From Phaeocystidibacter luteus (lineage in GTDB: Bacteria > Bacteroidota > Bacteroidia > Flavobacteriales > Schleiferiaceae), in the NCBI RefSeq assembly GCF_008933115.1, contig NZ_WBVO01000008.1:1-64000 (forward strand): DNA of 64,000 nucleotides. Reading direction: 5' to 3'. Each line of letters opens with the position of its first letter. Position 1 is the stretch's first letter. Position numbers and translations under genes: made by a program. Positions 4,957-40,383 of this stretch are shown one piece after another. The notes beneath the pieces are model-generated. The model worked only from the letters and a program-made list of their open reading frames with translations. It did not search any database and was not told where the DNA came from.

Positions 4957-6741
4957 TTACTCAACGATCAAGCGCTGAACATCGCCGTTTGCATTCTTAA
5001 CAAAGTATACACCTGCGTTAAGGTGAGAGATGTCGATCAACTTCACTTCGCGGTATACGTTCAATCTGCGACCGTTCACGTCGTAGATCGCTACGTCAGA
5101 AGTTTCGTTGAAGTGCAACTCACGAGAAGCTGGGTTAGGGTAAATTTGGAAGCCGTTTCCGTCAAAAGAAGGCTCTTCAAATAGACCAATACCACCCGTT
5201 TCAAATCCGCTTATAGCGAAAGTAAGTGAGTTGTTGTACGGGAATGGGTTGTTAGAGCTAGGGTGCTGACAGTTCACAAGAAGAGTGTTTCCGTCAATCG
5301 CACGAGCACCCGTGATTTCAGCACCAGCAGGAACACCCGTGATACGCTTCAGCTTAGCCAAAGTAGGGTTAGCATCGCTCATGTCGTACATGTAAAGCTC
5401 ACAGAAACGGTTAGACTCGCCATCTGGAACACGACCAAATGAACTTCCGTTCAAGTCTTCCTGAATAACCATGTAGCTCTGACCGTTGATCTCCATGAAA
5501 GTAAGTCCGTCAGGGTTAGAAAGGTGATTCGTAGGGTAAGACTGTGGATCAGCTACAGGAAGGTAAGGACCACCTTCGATGAATGAGCTCACAGTTTCAG
5601 TAGCTGGGTCATACTCAACTACACGTCCGTAGTAATCCCAGTAGTCAGAGCTGTCTGGGTGAGTCCCTTGAGCCATAGCGCGAGCCATTGAAATTGGGCT
5701 GTGTACGGCTCCAGCAGCGTGCTCGTCAGCCCAACGTCCAGCAGGGTTGTCACGGCCAGTTTCAGTAAAGTAAACTTTACCCGTAGCTGGATCGATAGCG
5801 AACCACTCCATACGGTTGAACATAGTAGCTTGTGCAGCAACAGCCTGTCCTGTGATGTTCAATACATCAGTCATTGAACCGTTGTTGATAGCAATCCACT
5901 TCGAACCCGAAGCGTCGTGCTTGTATACGTAAAGTGTACCTGAAGTAAAGTCGCCTGGTGTTGTAGCAACGAACTTGGTGAAGAAGCCTGGAGTTGCATC
6001 CTGACCTAGGTAAACCGTTTGGTTGTCAGATGCAATTGCACCACCTTCAAATGGCTGACGGCCCCAGTTGTACTGCTTGCGGATAGCAACCGCGTTGATT
6101 GGATCAACCTCAGTCATCCAGTTCAAGTTCTCAACACGCTTGATAGTTTGTCCGTCTGCGAAAGAAAGACCACTGTTTGAGATAGTAAAGTCTGATGTAT
6201 CGCGGAAACCTTGACCACCAGCGTAGATTTGAGCGTTAGACGACTGCCACCACTCTTCTGCTGTCCAGATACGTCCGTCAGGACCAACTATACCACCACA
6301 GTTCATACCTGTTTCACCTGTAGTTGAGAAGTCGATGTTGAAGAACTTACCTTCACGACCGTCGTTCAAAGTTTGTGGAACTACAACTAGTGAGTCACCT
6401 TGACGAGCAATCTTGAATGATGTCATACCACCACCGTCACCAATCTTGTCATTGGCTTCGATTCTTTCGTGGTTGATTGTTACCCATCCAAGGTCGTTGC
6501 TGTTCGGATCTTCAGTGAATCCGATGAAGTCATGCCACTGCTTAGATAGTGTAGAGTCGTTCATGCCCGTTTGCACGTAGTCGTGACCACCAATGAATAG
6601 AACCTGCATTTGCAATGGGCTCTTTGGCATAACTACAGTGGCTGGAGCAAAGTCATTGACCGGAATAGATGGGTCAAATTTGATTTGAGCTTGAGAGGCT
6701 ACTGCTGTGAGTAGACCTGCTGCGAGTAGAATTTTTTTCAT
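4957..6741 (-). CDS. PhoX/DUF839-family secreted protein with T9SS sorting domain
   Basis: 594 residues. The ATG at 6741 is chosen because it begins a clean signal peptide (MKKILLAAGLLTAVASQAQ). The body matches the PhoX/DUF839 beta-propeller family: an NHE motif (90-92), NCGGIVGPDGRIWTAEEWW around Cys148, FEGGAIASDNQTVYLGQD, and EWFAIDPATGKVYFTETGRD. PhoX enzymes are Ca/Fe phosphatases; their iron-ligating Cys sits in the equivalent NC-G motif. The last ~75 residues (FQIYPNPASRELHF to the end) form a type A T9SS C-terminal domain. Proteobacterial PhoX normally uses Tat, but there is no twin-arginine here. Phosphatase activity is inferred from the family, not shown. Confidence 0.82.
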   Translation of the reverse strand: MKKILLAAGLLTAVASQAQIKFDPSIPVNDFAPATVVMPKSPLQMQVLFIGGHDYVQTGMNDSTLSKQWHDFIGFTEDPNSNDLGWVTINHERIEANDKIGDGGGMTSFKIARQGDSLVVVPQTLNDGREGKFFNIDFSTTGETGMNCGGIVGPDGRIWTAEEWWQSSNAQIYAGGQGFRDTSDFTISNSGLSFADGQTIKRVENLNWMTEVDPINAVAIRKQYNWGRQPFEGGAIASDNQTVYLGQDATPGFFTKFVATTPGDFTSGTLYVYKHDASGSKWIAINNGSMTDVLNITGQAVAAQATMFNRMEWFAIDPATGKVYFTETGRDNPAGRWADEHAAGAVHSPISMARAMAQGTHPDSSDYWDYYGRVVEYDPATETVSSFIEGGPYLPVADPQSYPTNHLSNPDGLTFMEINGQSYMVIQEDLNGSSFGRVPDGESNRFCELYMYDMSDANPTLAKLKRITGVPAGAEITGARAIDGNTLLVNCQHPSSNNPFPYNNSLTFAISGFETGGIGLFEEPSFDGNGFQIYPNPASRELHFNETSDVAIYDVNGRRLNVYREVKLIDISHLNAGVYFVKNANGDVQRLIVE

Positions 6742-7110
6742 TTTCCTTACTTCTTGGTTAAAGATGCAAGGCAAAAGTGCCCAGACTAGGTTACCCTCTT
6801 TTTAGTGGCTGGTCAACGAATGGTTGCTTTGATGTTAGCGATGTTGCCCTAGCTTTAAATATTCGGAACGGTTCTGCAATGGACTTAAAACTGGCTTAAC
6901 TAGCCGAATTCGCATTTCCTGCGGGCTCAGGGTTTTACAGTTTACCTCAAGGTTAGTATTAACAATGGGCCGTTTTATTTGGAATCCGTTCAAATAAGGA
7001 TTCCGATGATAGGGACGCCCGCAATCGCGCTCTCCTCCTAACTTTAACGAGCCTTTAACCGTCATTACAACGCATCCGAAGTTACTTTGTAACCGTTCAA
7101 TTGAATTTTT
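6742..7110. other. Divergent intergenic region between phoX-like gene and moxR
   Basis: No credible gene in 369 bases. It must hold the promoters of both divergent units. Visible structures are an inverted repeat GGAATCC/GGATTCC with a 10-base loop (6981-7004) and a 13-base palindrome at 7081-7093. No good -33/-7 pair is evident for the minus-strand gene. Confidence 0.5.
7081..7093 (+). promoter_or_regulatory. Palindromic -7 region upstream of moxR
   Basis: GTTACTTTGTAAC is a perfect 5-3-5 palindrome that contains TTACTTTG, one mismatch from the Bacteroidota -7 consensus TAnnTTTG. It ends 17 bases before the moxR ATG. No TTG lies at the usual -33 distance. It is a candidate core promoter with an overlapping operator. 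Confidence 0.35.
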
Positions 7111-32023: not shown

Positions 32024-34786
32024 CTAGAAAGTAGTCATCTTCGCCACTAACGGCGCCTCATTATCCCTCATCCAGCGGAGGAGATACACACCAGCCTGAT
32101 CTGGACGATTGAAAGACGTCAACTGACCATTCACCTCTTTTACATCGATCACACGGCCACTTATGTCCATGAGTTGAATTTGACCGGTCTGTGCTTGCTC
32201 GCCGATGTCTACTTGCCACTGGCCGTCCGACTGTGTTACGTATAGTTCTGTTGGCGCAAACTCCGGAACAGTTATAGCACTTTGACTAACGGCAACCCAC
32301 AGAGTGCGGCTATCCCCCGCATTGGATTCAAAATACGAATAAGGTGCGTTGAGAAGGTGATGTGTCTTTTGTGCTGTGGAATCAATCAACCAGACATCCA
32401 TATACTGACCAAAATGATCCTTGTTGTAATCTACGGTGTGCGATCCAGCTTCCCCAACCTCAATCGTTACTGGGTAGGTTTTAGTCACCCCAACAGGAAG
32501 GTCAGCCGAAAGAATTGACTGCGTGCCCTGGGTAGTAGGAATCCACATGCTAGGAACATCCGAGTTCATTGAGCGAAGATCATACGCTTCGAGACCTTGG
32601 TCCCAGGCATCGGTGGCATCTGGGTCGAAGATTACGAGCACCTGATCTCGAGAACTATCTGGGTCATACACATTCAATCGAAGTGCGGGATTAACTCTCT
32701 TGTGGAACACTGAATTTCCGCTCGCCATGCGATCTGCGTATCGATGCGGATTCTTCAGGGTGAAAGTTTCAGAATTTGCATCTGAGGCGGACATCTTCAC
32801 CCAAAATGCAGTGAATGGGCGAATAAATGAGAACCCACCTGAAGTTGTTGCCGTCGTATTGTCGTGAGATTCCAAAGACTCACCTGAAGCCAGCACCGCA
32901 ACATATTGTCCAGCAGAAGGATCCCAAATGTGCACACCTTGATAGGCAAAAGGCCATTCCGATGGATTATCCGCACCGCCATCCCCATTGTAGTCATTGA
33001 GGAGCTTTGAAATGTCTATCGCTCCTGGATATGGGTTCGCAATGAGATTCCAACCACGGTTCTGAGCTACTTGATCAGCACTTGGATCATAATAATTATA
33101 GCACGTTGTACTGTGATTTCCGCTGGCCAGACCCCCTTTGAAGGATATTACACTGTTGAGGACAGGAAAGTTAGCGTCGGATTCGTAAATCACATAAGGT
33201 TTATTCACCGCGCTTTCTGTGCTGTCCGTTATTGCGGTCCACCCATTGGCGTTGGTAGTTGCGCCATTCTCCGAAGCATCCCAGGTGAAAATATTCGCCG
33301 TTGCCGTTCCGGTGTAGTCTAAGGTTAAATCATCATTGAAGTTACTCGGCTTGCCCGCGTTATTGGGGTTAGAAAAATGACGCCAACCGTCCACTCCACT
33401 AGAGAACCTAGTTCGCATGGAAATATTAGGCGACCCAGAAATAGACGCTTCTGCGCTTGTGTTGGACACGCCCCCACCGTAATAAATAGTCAACGAGGCA
33501 TTGCTCATATTCCAGGTGTTCGACCCAGTAGCTTCTGTGAGCATTAGACCACCATCCTGGATGGTGATTGTGGAATTTGATAAATTGAAGTTGTGACTTG
33601 AACTTTTGACATCAAAAATACCACGAATGGTAGTCCTTGAGTTTGCCATTGAGATGGTAGTACCGGTAAAGTTAATTCTTCCTGTAGGGTCGATGAAAAG
33701 GTGTCCTTGTCCACACCAACTGCAACCTCCCGGCTTGTTTACGGCACGTATACTCCTCGTTACTGTTATAGTCTCGTTCACGTGAAAACTACCCCCTTGA
33801 ACTACCAAGTCTCTCATAACGGGAGCAATTGAGGTATGACCGTTAATTGTGGAGTGTGAGCCTGGCCGTTTTAAAGTTGAATCGGCATCACTGGCGTGTG
33901 CAAAGTCGATCATTAAGGCCCCCAAATTGAACGCGTCATCACCACCAGCCACATCTATCTGATCATACTCGTGCTTTATGCGGATCTTGGTGTACTGATT
34001 TGTCACGTCTGGCACACCTTGCCCGGTAGCCCAAGTACCGCTCACGTACAAATCACCCGAAGCAATAGTATAATACGGTACAGGCGCCGTAGTTCTCACC
34101 GAAGTTGGCGTCGTGGCATTAGCCGTACTACCGTTGCTTCCATTCGACACACTATCTACCAAGGTGTTACTTGCCAGCGTTTCAAACGTGAAATATCCTT
34201 CCAATGCCGTAGTGTCATCGTCCGCAAACGAGATGGTATCTTGCTGATACCAGAGTACATTCTCCTTCGTTCTCGCCTCACTCCAAAATCTCAATTCATC
34301 AAAACTTGCCGAGGCCGGCGTAGTCGGCGAAGTGCTCAATGCACCCAAGTACCATTGACCCGAAGACAAATCTGGATTCCAAGTTGTTTCCACCACAGAA
34401 TCCGTTCGCGAGCCATCCAGCCAGAGCTTCAACTCATTCCCCGATTCATCGTCCATCACTAACGCCACATGGTGCCATGCAGAGGCGCTTACCGCATTGG
34501 TGAACGTACGAGTGTCCGTTCCATCTGAAATCGTCACCACCAAATCTCCACTTGTGAGTTGGAAAGTGAGGTATCCGTTATCTAGACCGAGTAACTCCGC
34601 CGTGCCGTCTGTATCGTAGAACCAAAATTCAACGGTGAAGTTGTTTCCGGCACTTCCAAAGTTTCTCTTGGTTTCATTGCCGAGGTCGACGTAATCTCCA
34701 GCTGTACCGGAAAGGGTCAACATTTTTCCTTGTCCAAATACGATGAAAGAGGCGAGCGAGAAAGTTAAGAGCAGTAGTTTTTTCAT
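32024..34786 (-). CDS. Secreted LamG-domain protein with T9SS sorting domain
   Basis: 920 residues. Signal peptide MKKLLLLTFSLASFIVFGQ; a LamG/ConA-like domain at about 25-215 (YVDLGNETKRNFG, FTVEFWFYDTDG, WHHVALVMDDES, ASFDELRFWSEAR); a central beta-helix-like region (SSHNFNLSNSTITIQDGGLML); a region with WNLIANPYPGAIDISKLL; and a C-terminal ~75-residue T9SS-type domain (QLMDISGRVIDVKEV to VAKMTTF). Such proteins are cell-surface or released adhesins or glycan-binding proteins. The ATG overlaps the stop of a 55-residue peptide gene (TGATG), so translation is coupled. Confidence 0.85.
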   Translation of the reverse strand: MKKLLLLTFSLASFIVFGQGKMLTLSGTAGDYVDLGNETKRNFGSAGNNFTVEFWFYDTDGTAELLGLDNGYLTFQLTSGDLVVTISDGTDTRTFTNAVSASAWHHVALVMDDESGNELKLWLDGSRTDSVVETTWNPDLSSGQWYLGALSTSPTTPASASFDELRFWSEARTKENVLWYQQDTISFADDDTTALEGYFTFETLASNTLVDSVSNGSNGSTANATTPTSVRTTAPVPYYTIASGDLYVSGTWATGQGVPDVTNQYTKIRIKHEYDQIDVAGGDDAFNLGALMIDFAHASDADSTLKRPGSHSTINGHTSIAPVMRDLVVQGGSFHVNETITVTRSIRAVNKPGGCSWCGQGHLFIDPTGRINFTGTTISMANSRTTIRGIFDVKSSSHNFNLSNSTITIQDGGLMLTEATGSNTWNMSNASLTIYYGGGVSNTSAEASISGSPNISMRTRFSSGVDGWRHFSNPNNAGKPSNFNDDLTLDYTGTATANIFTWDASENGATTNANGWTAITDSTESAVNKPYVIYESDANFPVLNSVISFKGGLASGNHSTTCYNYYDPSADQVAQNRGWNLIANPYPGAIDISKLLNDYNGDGGADNPSEWPFAYQGVHIWDPSAGQYVAVLASGESLESHDNTTATTSGGFSFIRPFTAFWVKMSASDANSETFTLKNPHRYADRMASGNSVFHKRVNPALRLNVYDPDSSRDQVLVIFDPDATDAWDQGLEAYDLRSMNSDVPSMWIPTTQGTQSILSADLPVGVTKTYPVTIEVGEAGSHTVDYNKDHFGQYMDVWLIDSTAQKTHHLLNAPYSYFESNAGDSRTLWVAVSQSAITVPEFAPTELYVTQSDGQWQVDIGEQAQTGQIQLMDISGRVIDVKEVNGQLTSFNRPDQAGVYLLRWMRDNEAPLVAKMTTF

Positions 34787-34953
34787 CAGGCTTGGTTTTT
34801 CTTCTTCTGATATACGCCGTATCCCACGCCAGCGGCAGCAATCAAAATAAATGGTAATGGTGCAGGTGTGCTTGGGTTACCCGGTTGGGCAAACAAAAAA
34901 AGCGGGATGCCCAACATGAGTAGGGCGAACAGCGTCAGTCGGTACGATTTCAT
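34786..34953 (-). CDS. Short PID-CTERM-like secreted peptide
   Basis: 55 residues, below usual ORF cut-offs. Reading the minus strand: MKSYRLTLFALLMLGIP..., a signal peptide ending about FAQ, then a Pro-rich stretch PGNPSTPAP and PLPFILIAAAGVGYGVYQ followed by KKKNQA. This signal-Pro-rich-hydrophobic-basic plan matches the PID-CTERM class of short Bacteroidota proteins thought to be sorted to the envelope, although the PID residues themselves are replaced by PLP. The stop TGA overlaps the ATG of the LamG gene (TGATG). The role is unknown; the coupling suggests it assists or anchors the LamG protein. Confidence 0.7.
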   Translation of the reverse strand: MKSYRLTLFALLMLGIPLFLFAQPGNPSTPAPLPFILIAAAGVGYGVYQKKKNQA

Positions 34954-35097: not shown

Positions 35098-35700
35098 ATG
35101 GTTACATCGCGCATCCAAGCGATTATTGAACAGGAAATCCAAGCGATTCAAAACATTCCGGTCGACGGAATCATCGAAAAGGCCGTTGCCATCATCCACG
35201 AGCAAGTGCACCTCAAAGGAGGTAAAGTTGTCGTAAGCGGAATGGGCAAAGCTGGACAAATTGGCGTGAATATCGCCACGACCCTCAGTAGCACAGGCAC
35301 GCCATCTATTTTCCTTCATCCAGCTGAGTCGCAGCACGGCGATTTAGGGATGGTGCAGAAAAACGATGTGATGTTCCTCATTTCCAATTCTGGAAAGACC
35401 CGTGAAATCATTGAAATGGAGCACCTTGTAAAAGAGATGTATCCAGACATCAAGATTATTGGACTAACAGGGTCTATGGAAGGCGACCTCGCCAAGTTTA
35501 GCGATGTACTCCTATACACTGGAGGCCCCAAGGAGGTTTGCCCATTGGGCTTGGCGCCAACCACATCGACTACGGTCATGACCGTAGTTGGCGATATTTT
35601 GGTGGTTATGATGATGGAGAAAATCAACTTCACAAAAGAAGAATACGCCAAGCGCCACCACAGTGGTTACTTGGGAGTTAAAGCAAGAAATAAAAGCTGA
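35098..35700 (+). CDS. kdsD: Arabinose-5-phosphate isomerase, SIS domain only
   Basis: 200 residues. A single SIS sugar-isomerase domain: VVVSGMGKAGQIGVNIATTLSSTGTPS (about 44-70), HPAESQHGDLG, FLISNSGKTREI, and CPLGLAPTTSTT, the KdsD/KpsF signature. Typical KdsD (about 320 residues) has two C-terminal CBS domains, which are absent here. It converts ribulose-5-phosphate to arabinose-5-phosphate, the first step of Kdo synthesis. The next gene begins at the overlapping TGATG. Confidence 0.9.
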   Translation: MVTSRIQAIIEQEIQAIQNIPVDGIIEKAVAIIHEQVHLKGGKVVVSGMGKAGQIGVNIATTLSSTGTPSIFLHPAESQHGDLGMVQKNDVMFLISNSGKTREIIEMEHLVKEMYPDIKIIGLTGSMEGDLAKFSDVLLYTGGPKEVCPLGLAPTTSTTVMTVVGDILVVMMMEKINFTKEEYAKRHHSGYLGVKARNKS

Positions 35701-38027: not shown

Positions 38028-38035
38028 TACATTTG
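38028..38035 (+). promoter_or_regulatory. -7 box upstream of the T9SS adhesin-like gene
   Basis: TACATTTG, an exact TAnnTTTG match. The transcription start would lie near 38042, after the in-frame GTG at 38035, which is why the ATG at 38065 is chosen as the start of the gene. Confidence 0.4.
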
Positions 38036-38064
38036 TGCGGATTAGATTCAATTTGCTCTCACTT

Positions 38065-40383
38065 ATGTTCGCACTATTACGCCAGAAACTCCTCCTCTGT
38101 ATTGGTTTCATAATTTTTGCTAGCTCAAGTTTTGCCTCTCACTACGAGGGTGGACAAGTGTATTGGGAAGCATTGGGCAACGACAGGTACATCTTTTACG
38201 CGCAACTGGTTGGTCACACCGAAGCCCATTCTCATGCCCTACCCTATCAATTGACGGTTTATACGAATGTTCCAGGACGCTCAACTATACTTCTAGCCCT
38301 GCACGATACAGAGCGGCTCACGCAGTATTGCAATGATTCAACTGAACGCAACCTAGAACTCCGAACTTTCCGAAGTCTTCCAATAACACTTGCAGCACCA
38401 GCCGCTGGAACGCGGTACGATTTCTGGTTTGAAGACTGTTGCCGAGCCGACACCTCTGAAATCAACGTAACAGGGTACAGCGACGTTTACTACGACGCCT
38501 ACATGTGGCATGCAGGTGCGAATAAGTCAAGTGGTTATTTCAATATTATTAACACCTTCCGGAATTCGTCTACGCGTGCTATTGACGTTAAGCCAAACCC
38601 CGGCGGAACGGATTCTACCATGAGCGTTAGTATGGCCTTTGCCAAAACTCAGAATGGTGCGAATGTCACTTATAATACAGGATACAGTCAAAACTTCCCT
38701 ACTTCGCCCAATGATTCACTTTCTGCGGATGGTATGTTTTATTCGGGCTTGATTGATTCCAGCTTTCACGCCGTATTAGCATTCTCTGGATACAAACCAG
38801 CTCCGAATGGAGTTGGACTAGCAAGTGTTGTGAGGTACACGTTTGGGTTGAAGTACATTGACATGCAATATCACAGCGAACCGAAGCTATCGCAACTGAA
38901 CTCTTCACACGCGTTTGATGTAAGAAATCACGACAGTGCCATTTTCATTCAAACGTTTAGAACGGATACAATCGAGATTGAATTTGAGGTGAGGGATACC
39001 AGCTCGCTCATTGCAGCTGGAGACTCAATCCAAGTGTACTTCAGCGAGCCTACTCCTCATTCGCCGGGATACTCATCCTTGCCTGAGCTTATACCGACGC
39101 AAAGCTCAACCGCATTAGCCGACACCGGAATGATTCGTTTCAAATTCAGATGGCTTGTTCCAAGCGACCTTCCGGTAGGCACCCACACCTTTGATTTGGT
39201 GGCGGAGAACAATCGTTGTCCAGGCAATGGTCTTACAATTCGGAGCTTGTTCTTCACAAGTAGTGATACACGAGTATTCAAAGACTATGTGGTATGCCCG
39301 AATGTTCCAACCCAACTGAATGGGCCTTCGGGTTCAAATGTTCAATGGATCCCCACAACCGGATTGAACTTTAACTCCGGTTCCTCTCGACCTTATGCAA
39401 CGGTTGATTCAACGAAGATTTATTACTGTGTGGTGAATGGCGACACGGTAGAAATTCATCGTATGTTGGTACACGATCAAACACCATTGACCGTATCATT
39501 GAATGGAACCACTTTGAGCATTGATAATCCATCAATCTATTCTGATACCCGAAGCTTGTACTTCTATAAAGTTCTTGTTGCCGCACTCGACTCTAACATC
39601 ACAAGCGTCTCAGGAGATGGCGATTACAGCATAAAGGCGTATGACGCCAACCGCTGTTTTGACTATTCAAATACTGTCTCCTTGACAACTAGTTCAAGGA
39701 TTGAATATGCAGTAATTGATGAACATGTTCAATCCTCGGGATGGGACGACATCAACTCATTTGAATATGGCATTAGCTTTTTATCACTTCCGGGGAATAT
39801 GACCGAACTTCATCACATGTTGCTGCCTGGAGTTCGTCGCGATATCTACGCTCAAACCCACTCTATTCAAGGTTTCGTGAAAATTGGTCAAGTTGGTAAT
39901 GCTCTCAATTTCTCGGTATCGGATTATAATCCAAGTTCTACCCTTATCACGTTCAATCCTCCATTTGTTATCGACTACACAGCTACATACCGTTTCGAAT
40001 TTGCTTTGACAGGATATGAAGGACACATTGCCCATCAATTTCCTTATTCAACTCCCAAAGCATTAATCTTTAATACCAAAGTGAATAATAATCAGATGGA
40101 TTTCATCCAAATAGTATTCCGTGGTCAGAAAGGATTATCCCAAGCCGAACTATCGAATGAGGTTTCCATCTTTCCGAATCCAGCTCAGAATTACGTCCGA
40201 ATTTCGGGCATTCAGGAGAACACATCCTTTGAGATTGTTGCATCAGATGGATCTACAGTCAAAACTGGAACGGTTGAGCCCGAAGGTTTAATCTCAACTG
40301 CTGAACTTAAATCTGGAGTGTATTATTTACGACTTCACGACAATCGAAATCATTGGGTTGAAAAGCTAGTAATCGCTAGATAG
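38065..40383 (+). CDS. Large secreted protein with T9SS type A sorting domain
   Basis: 772 residues. Signal peptide MFALLRQKLLLCIGFIIFASSSFA, followed by SHYEGGQVYWEALGNDRYIFYA, the opening typical of Bacteroidota gliding or adhesin-like proteins (ASH...G..ITY). The middle is beta-rich with Cys pairs (DTERLTQYCN, FWFEDCCRAD, ENNRCPGNG). The C-terminal ~80 residues (VSIFPNPAQNYVRISG ... GVYYLRLHDN ... KLVIAR) are a canonical type A T9SS signal. The surface role (adhesion or gliding) is inferred from family style. The ATG at 38065 is supported by the promoter. Confidence 0.8.
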   Translation: MFALLRQKLLLCIGFIIFASSSFASHYEGGQVYWEALGNDRYIFYAQLVGHTEAHSHALPYQLTVYTNVPGRSTILLALHDTERLTQYCNDSTERNLELRTFRSLPITLAAPAAGTRYDFWFEDCCRADTSEINVTGYSDVYYDAYMWHAGANKSSGYFNIINTFRNSSTRAIDVKPNPGGTDSTMSVSMAFAKTQNGANVTYNTGYSQNFPTSPNDSLSADGMFYSGLIDSSFHAVLAFSGYKPAPNGVGLASVVRYTFGLKYIDMQYHSEPKLSQLNSSHAFDVRNHDSAIFIQTFRTDTIEIEFEVRDTSSLIAAGDSIQVYFSEPTPHSPGYSSLPELIPTQSSTALADTGMIRFKFRWLVPSDLPVGTHTFDLVAENNRCPGNGLTIRSLFFTSSDTRVFKDYVVCPNVPTQLNGPSGSNVQWIPTTGLNFNSGSSRPYATVDSTKIYYCVVNGDTVEIHRMLVHDQTPLTVSLNGTTLSIDNPSIYSDTRSLYFYKVLVAALDSNITSVSGDGDYSIKAYDANRCFDYSNTVSLTTSSRIEYAVIDEHVQSSGWDDINSFEYGISFLSLPGNMTELHHMLLPGVRRDIYAQTHSIQGFVKIGQVGNALNFSVSDYNPSSTLITFNPPFVIDYTATYRFEFALTGYEGHIAHQFPYSTPKALIFNTKVNNNQMDFIQIVFRGQKGLSQAELSNEVSIFPNPAQNYVRISGIQENTSFEIVASDGSTVKTGTVEPEGLISTAELKSGVYYLRLHDNRNHWVEKLVIAR

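Follow-up and report, generated by a model that had tools for sequence, protein, structure and literature searches.

A divergent PID_CTERM relative beside a LamG gene of Phaeocystidibacter luteus: a miniprotein class linked to type IX secretion cargo genes and a candidate exosortase substrate

The window analyzed here (64,000 nucleotides of Phaeocystidibacter luteus, contig NZ_WBVO01000008.1, positions 1 to 64,000 of the forward strand; contig C26 of genome G000, which comprises 3.2 Mb in 27 contigs) carries a gene for a 55-residue peptide whose stop codon overlaps the ATG of a gene for a 920-residue LamG protein as TGATG. The short frame is a real, conserved coding gene, and its product is a divergent relative of the PID_CTERM peptides, a class linked to cargo genes of the type IX secretion system (T9SS) and to XrtF/XrtX-type exosortases. 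On balance, we lean towards the peptide being a PID-CTERM miniprotein cut by XrtF, with a processed head that would serve the display or anchoring of the adjacent T9SS cargo. The peptide would be exported by Sec, and signal peptidase would leave a mature form of about 33 residues, its short Pro-rich head in the periplasm, its single Ala/Gly-rich helix in the inner membrane and its basic end in the cytoplasm. XrtF, a putative Cys-Arg-His membrane transpeptidase, would cut at the border between head and helix (P-[ILF]-[D/G/P]) and transfer the Pro-rich head to an acceptor in the membrane; the head may then act in surface display or anchoring of the cargo encoded alongside.

The full translation of the frame was MKSYRLTLFALLMLGIPLFLFAQPGNPSTPAPLPFILIAAAGVGYGVYQKKKNQA, read as a signal peptide up to FLFA followed by Q-P-G-N-P-S-T-P-A-P, PLPFILIAAAGVGYGVYQ and KKKNQA. 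The parts, which an earlier note on this DNA had described correctly together with the overlap with the 920-codon frame, were as follows:

34786 to 34953, minus strand: miniprotein gene P0001, 55 residues, divergent PID-CTERM relative (paralogues; NF046080, 17.1 bits)
34888 to 34953, minus strand: signal peptide, residues 1-22 (sequence and hydropathy; predicted cleavage after FLFA)
34855 to 34887, minus strand: Pro-rich mature N-terminus QPGNPSTPAPL, residues 23-33 (AQPGNPSTPAP shared with paralogues and orthologue)
34807 to 34854, minus strand: Ala/Gly-rich hydrophobic segment PFILIAAAGVGYGVYQ, residues 34-49 (paralogue alignment and NF046080)
34789 to 34806, minus strand: basic C-terminal end KKKNQA, residues 50-55 (sequence)

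A search of the genome with the window peptide gave six further relatives in G000, and the alignment of six paralogues showed K50 to be invariant. The segment AQPGNPSTPAP was identical in six copies (the window peptide, four G000 paralogues and the orthologue in genome G001); in its 11 codons (33 bases, 15 pairs of copies) 5-10 third positions differed, with 0-1 changes at first and 0-1 at second positions (serine TCN vs. AGC). The existence of paralogues, together with third-position changes at a constant protein sequence, places the frame beyond chance.

The window peptide had the order of parts of PID_CTERM (signal peptide, Pro-rich part, C-terminal helix, basic end), and positions 10-25 of NF046080 aligned to its residues 38-53. 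Because it was 54 and 51% identical to the two paralogues of contig C23 and shared AQPGNPSTPAP, it is of common descent with the PID-bearing peptides. Two features weigh against the assignment: the NF046080 score (17.1 bits) was below the cut-off of 26, whereas three G000 paralogues exceeded it, and PLPF replaces the P-I-D residues (PIDG). The helix is weakly hydrophobic, with no 19-residue Kyte-Doolittle window above 1.6 outside the signal peptide. It also counts against processing by XrtF that this sorting signal would have almost nothing to sort. The changed residues had been taken in the earlier note as a possible variant sorting class. This was not borne out: since the syntenic orthologue in G001 (L055) reads PIGG (APIGG) and three G000 paralogues read PIDGG, with PFGF or PLGF in other relatives, the window peptide is a divergent PID_CTERM relative and not a separate class. 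The alignment of six G000 peptides matched in 31 of 60 relatives' genomes (G000 included). In the order-level set (74 of 92 matches examined; 17 were not taken, and a 75th peptide, in G010:C11 (L151) beside a 551-residue protein with a T9SS C-terminal domain (CTD), stands outside the counts) [AGS][QH]P was present in 72 of 74 peptides, mostly at the predicted end of the signal peptide. The motif before the helix was P[IVL][DN]G in 34 and P[FLI]GF in 24 of them; the Asp is therefore variable across the family, and the window peptide is not alone in departing from it. The suggestion that the peptide was conserved and PID-CTERM-like thus held.

NF046080 was run at E 0.001 on 296 Bacteroidota genomes, each 90% complete or more; 49 of them had matches, 141 in all. 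All except one were in stop-to-stop frames of 31-183 residues (140 of 141; the other was in a 995-residue frame), so the PID_CTERM domain is nearly the whole protein, and among the 141 matches the signal did not recur as the tail of diverse larger proteins. It would be unusual for a sorting signal to make up almost the entire protein. PEP-CTERM is found at the C-termini of numerous large proteins unrelated to one another, whereas PID_CTERM was confined to short frames apart from the one match. The two resemble each other in the tripartite signal (motif, helix, basic end) and the membrane transpeptidase of the PEP-CTERM/EpsH exosortase system, as described in PMC7468200.

Other members of the family were observed along the way. 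L189 4115-7036 (G221:C1:2167132; 35.5 bits, 973 residues from the first start) was the sole large frame with a PID_CTERM-like end. The PID peptide of L198 4506-4769 (G089:C1:4120520) has a signal peptide ending in a lipobox-like LLFSC, so that after maturation the head may be a lipoprotein. L019 6852-7121 (G000:C21) and L276 6760-6948 (G002:C26) each encode a PID-like peptide of a more distant kind (AQPDNPATPAPLDE... in G000), following a gene of 131 residues (LuxR-type in L019, GerE match) with no T9SS cargo alongside; genes nearby in both genomes are presumably ftsA/ftsZ-like. The scan of genome contigs with alignment A1 gave one true relative, L050, and two Streptacidiphilus loci were set aside, their match spanning 11 residues only. 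Matches to the Gram-positive LPXTG anchor and to ETRAMP were below the cut-offs and were read as generic similarity of a helix with a basic end.

Peptides of this class were linked to T9SS-type cargo genes across the phylum, from the window's family to other classes and in both gene orders. For the 74 order-level peptides, the nearest upstream gene was on the same strand and ended within 50 bp in 49 cases and at 51-400 bp in 14; it was on the opposite strand in 7 and on the same strand beyond 400 bp in 2, and in 2 there was none before the end of the fetched DNA. Among the 62 distinct same-strand upstream neighbors (up to 400 bp), the T9SS type A sorting domain TIGR04183 was matched in 45 and the type C domain NF033708 in 20, both at E 0.01 or better, sets which may overlap; TIGR04183 was not in the 25 families shown for 62 control genes. 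The controls were 318 further genes taken from the initial loci, all scored with a local model of the cargo C-terminus and 62 of them scanned with NCBIfam. Neighboring cargo proteins carry tails of the known type A and C domains; many peptide-linked cargos differed in having a pre-CTD segment with RF.L.F (of the type DL...Y.F......RF.L.F, common to many neighbor C-termini), and some were below the TIGR04183 cut-off or had no match.

The local model was built from 53 of the 62 upstream neighbors (nine left out), and is circular on the order-level set. With this partial circularity, a same-strand CTD gene was within 150 bp of 55 of the 74 peptides. The CTD gene was upstream in 52, downstream in 5 and on both sides in 2, so the peptide mostly follows the cargo gene. 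This order bears on the idea that the 55-codon frame arose by chance, or serves as a leader for translational coupling, ahead of the LamG gene; the TGATG overlap would agree with it, but the amino acid sequence is under selection, and the conserved frame and the G001 orthologue without a LamG gene contradict it. Gene order and the third-position changes led us to discard this explanation as exceedingly improbable.

The model had not been trained on the window cargo, nor on the loci from Flavobacterium or from the phylum-wide set. In 29 phylum loci (L113-L141, one per genome, the best matches of the 141 and not a random draw) a same-strand upstream CTD gene was present within 400 bp in 23, vs. 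10 of the 318 control genes (Fisher test, 7e-23). The loci with no upstream CTD gene were L117, L123, L125, L126, L135 and L141; the L125 stretch holds no upstream gene. The peptide-first order of the window was rarer but recurred in Flavobacterium, where eight cargo genes (567-607 residues; L277-L283, two in L279), picked from the hits of alignment A3 and not sampled, began 15-129 bp after a PID-like peptide and scored 44-68 bits with the local model over nearly its full length. Among the 29 listed matches that extended into the pre-CTD segment (to position 5 of the model or beyond it), a peptide lay alongside 22, the model being partly trained on them, and the remaining 7, L142 and L143 of the window's genome among them, had none.

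The link has its exceptions, which count against it. There was no adjacent CTD gene for 19 of the 74 peptides; a copy in Flavobacterium next to a gene that we take to be ribE (riboflavin synthase) was not beside a cargo gene; and a pattern search found no peptide in the fetched stretch beside L142 and L143, two cargo genes with the pre-CTD segment in the window's genome. These two are at G000:C23:70250-70612 and G000:C6:14139-14480 respectively, and for L143 the fetched stretch takes in only about 100 bp of upstream DNA.

In several peptide-cargo pairs (L018 2355-3482, L062, L108, L279-L283) a third gene encoded a secreted protein beginning with a GIGT.TPN- or VGVGTTNP-like stretch; the one in L018 matched Peptidase_S74.

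The coupling of the peptide to the LamG protein itself, as the earlier note had put it, stood at the level of the class only. The features of the cargo gene and its surroundings were:

32024 to 34786, minus strand: LamG protein, 920 residues, T9SS-type C-terminus, cargo candidate (domain and tail matches)
34301 to 34582, minus strand: Laminin_G_2 domain, residues 69-162 of the LamG protein (PF02210, 30.9 bits; cut-off 22.9)
32039 to 32371, minus strand: cargo C-terminus, pre-CTD segment and CTD (alignment A2 and local cargo model)
35098 to 35700, plus strand: divergent gene, syntenic anchor common to the window and G001 (L055) (locus comparison)

Alignment A2 matched the LamG C-terminus at 32045-32371 (E 1.5e-9), and the local model gave 44.3 bits over model positions 4-117. 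Against the curated class the tail reached 19.4 bits, below the TIGR04183 cut-off of 23 (E 0.00079), which weighs against a strict type A assignment; together with the local score this E-value marks the LamG C-terminus as homologous to other T9SS tails, and the protein is a predicted T9SS cargo candidate in a genome that has SprA. The G001 orthologue of the peptide adjoins the same divergent gene, presumably for a KpsF-like SIS-domain protein, with no LamG gene at that locus. The sole full-length LamG match in other genomes (41 genomes of the family searched) was in G002, at 45% identity, and the fetched stretch beside it held no such peptide. The specific LamG-peptide pair is not conserved, whereas the pairing of the classes is. 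As G002 has the LamG gene without the peptide and G001 the peptide without the LamG gene, the two appear to have been joined, or parted, within the genus. A role of the peptide as a LamG-specific partner was ruled out by this separate occurrence of the orthologues; the peptide may assist the export of the LamG protein. Two further window genes (38035-40383, plus strand, and 4957-6774, minus strand) had weak T9SS-type C-termini (22.2 and 18.0 bits respectively with the local model), and a short frame with the AQP...P pattern was not found beside either of them.

A co-occurring sorting enzyme, which the earlier note had proposed to look for, was found in the window's genome. XrtF was present at G000:C1:430347-430892 (about 130 bits, 130.4-130.7; cut-off 90), followed by a TIGR04127 membrane protein (57.7 bits; cut-off 35), and adjoined none of the peptides found. 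The genome thus has XrtF and its associated membrane protein as in the known systems XrtF (TIGR04128), XrtX (NF046081) and XrtY (NF046083); the difference is that the substrate proposed here is a miniprotein, not a large protein. G000 XrtF has the Cys, Arg and His, and in 13 aligned exosortases Cys105, Asn143 and Arg146 were invariant and His166 was present in 12. Compared with the PDB by Foldseek, the XrtF model (pLDDT 87.1, pTM 0.81) had no match up to E 0.001, and a profile search against PDB sequences was also empty, leaving the XrtF fold unconfirmed.

Exosortases of PF09721 were present in 70 of the 296 genomes and in 38 of the 49 PID-positive ones. TIGR04128 at E 1e-5 matched in 90 of 296 genomes: 49 of 49 PID-positive vs. 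41 of 247 others (Fisher test, 2.4e-31), PID-negative meaning no NF046080 match at E 0.001, a group in which several Flavobacterium genomes have PID-like peptides found with A3. Only 34 of the 90 were above the TIGR04128 cut-off, 8 of them PID-positive, so the partner is the XrtF/XrtX/XrtY-like group and not strict XrtF. In the window's family XrtF was above the cut-off in 25 of 26 PID-positive vs. 2 of 11 PID-negative genomes (p 4e-6); one of the 11, G012, has an 81-residue peptide missed by the first model (NF046080, 30 bits).

Peptide and exosortase genes adjoin in six genomes of five families by their labels (G012, G089, G101, G128, G170 and G328). The order in G012 and G170 was T9SS-type cargo, peptide, exosortase and a small protein with no NCBIfam match; in G089 it was cargo, peptide, exosortase; and in G128 the gene after the exosortase matched the XrtX-associated membrane protein NF046082 (148.1 bits; cut-off 75). 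The peptide-adjacent enzymes scanned were closest to XrtF (G012), XrtX (G170) and XrtY (G089), each below its cut-off. The miniproteins tie two envelope sorting routes by adjacent genes, the exosortase of the inner membrane and the T9SS of the outer membrane. Three points tell against the link: 41 of the 49 PID-positive TIGR04128 matches were below the family cut-off, the XrtF-like enzyme of G012 (L149 2198-2746), within the cargo-peptide-exosortase run, does not have the conserved His, and Fisher tests ignore relatedness. To the last, our answer is that peptide and enzyme genes adjoin in those six genomes and that the cargo link recurs phylum-wide, and on this evidence the miniproteins are good candidates for substrates of XrtF/XrtX-type enzymes.

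The cargo adjacency, the Ala/Gly-rich helix and the presence of SprA in all 49 PID-positive genomes (227 of 296 overall, and 90 of 90 XrtF-type-positive) would also suit an uncleaved single-pass accessory in the inner membrane, aiding T9SS cargo, e.g. near GldL/GldM, with an indirect link to XrtF. We consider this unlikely, as it leaves unexplained both the gene pairs of peptide and exosortase and the association within the 227 SprA-positive genomes, where an XrtF-type match was present in 49 of 49 PID-positive vs. 41 of 178 others (Fisher test, 4e-25).

The CTERM signal, the exosortase and the T9SS cargo are known kinds. Judging by the open-licence literature, what appears to be new is that the signal is almost confined to miniproteins, that these pair with T9SS-type cargo genes and extend to genomes with XrtF, and that they offer a candidate substrate behind the published xrtF phenotype. 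In NCBIfam, PID_CTERM, XrtX, the XrtX-associated protein and XrtY have successive accessions (NF046080-NF046083), which suggests that its curators already tie PID_CTERM to XrtX. For the cargo link of PID_CTERM no report was found in the open-licence literature, which is weak evidence of absence.

A role of the exosortase in surface phenotypes was reported for Flavobacterium johnsoniae. In a transposon screen of this species (PMC10936215), xrtF was needed for biofilm formation and surface colonization, and deletions of xrtF (Fjoh_1448), Fjoh_1449 and the hypothetical gene Fjoh_0651 had identical entries in the summary table: less sand colonization, much less biofilm and no zorbs. Against a specific connection, the mutants of porU, porZ and the aminotransferase gene Fjoh_0334 shared the same entries, sprA and porV mutants shared those for biofilm and zorbs, and 8 of 9 mutants formed no zorbs, colony spreading being lost only in the sprA mutant (PMC10936215). 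The phenotype shared by xrtF and Fjoh_0651 is therefore suggestive, not specific. Exosortase substrates in F. johnsoniae were named there as future work (PMC10936215), and the miniproteins are concrete candidates for the substrates of XrtF. Complementation of Fjoh_0651 used a 434-bp fragment that took in the presumed promoter (PMC10936215), so the gene is small.

The location of PID-like genes was compared with this one by gene counting. In genome G482, which may be that of F. johnsoniae UW101, an 80-residue PID-like peptide (PGLPINQDLPYLIAAGLLLG...) is encoded at 710.5 kb, adjoining the presumed ribE; it matched A3 weakly (E 1.7e-4), and its location and C-terminal tail connect it with other copies linked to ribE. 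A3 is itself weakly specific, and the 326 of 398 Flavobacterium genomes that it matched were not counted as PID-bearing. At 778.7-781.0 kb, a CTD-bearing gene has the same length, 2283 bases, as the published porZ (Fjoh_0707) fragment. Between it and the peptide there were 68 frames of at least 40 residues, 61 of at least 60 residues and 46 with a codon score above 0.15; our own selection (codon score above 0.03) gave 56 genes, or 55 with one doubtful frame left out. A count of 55 would make the peptide Fjoh_0651, and a count of 56 would make it 0650. Other short genes, of 417 and 405 bases, are three and five places away and, in our reading, fit the 434-bp fragment only with almost no upstream DNA. 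Fjoh_0651 may thus be the PID-like peptide, a soft support, since the identity comes from counting genes in G482 and not from annotation; Fjoh_0651 is likewise a small hypothetical gene, with deletion entries equal to those of xrtF in the summary table (PMC10936215).

These copies bear on whether the peptide is an XrtF substrate with a role of its own, in the biofilm matrix or as an envelope lipopeptide, with cargo adjacency reflecting shared regulation only. The presumed ribE was the neighbor in 22 of the best 30 Flavobacterium loci (one of the 30, L224, was mis-parsed and counted as a miss, and L202 and L203 had supplied rows of A3), another copy is near the presumed ftsZ beside the LuxR-type gene, and the biofilm phenotype of the Fjoh_0651 and xrtF deletions, as tabulated, points the same way; the phylum-wide cargo link in both gene orders is more specific than shared regulation needs, and we hold this explanation to be rather doubtful. 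Returning to a processed head that serves the cargo, a broader version is a tentative possibility: a single Bacteroidota pathway of XrtF/XrtX and T9SS, in which a conjugate of PID head and acceptor would display or anchor the cargo and Fjoh_0651 would be a PID miniprotein whose loss is equivalent to that of XrtF. The xrtF gene of G482 was located at 1,661 kb.

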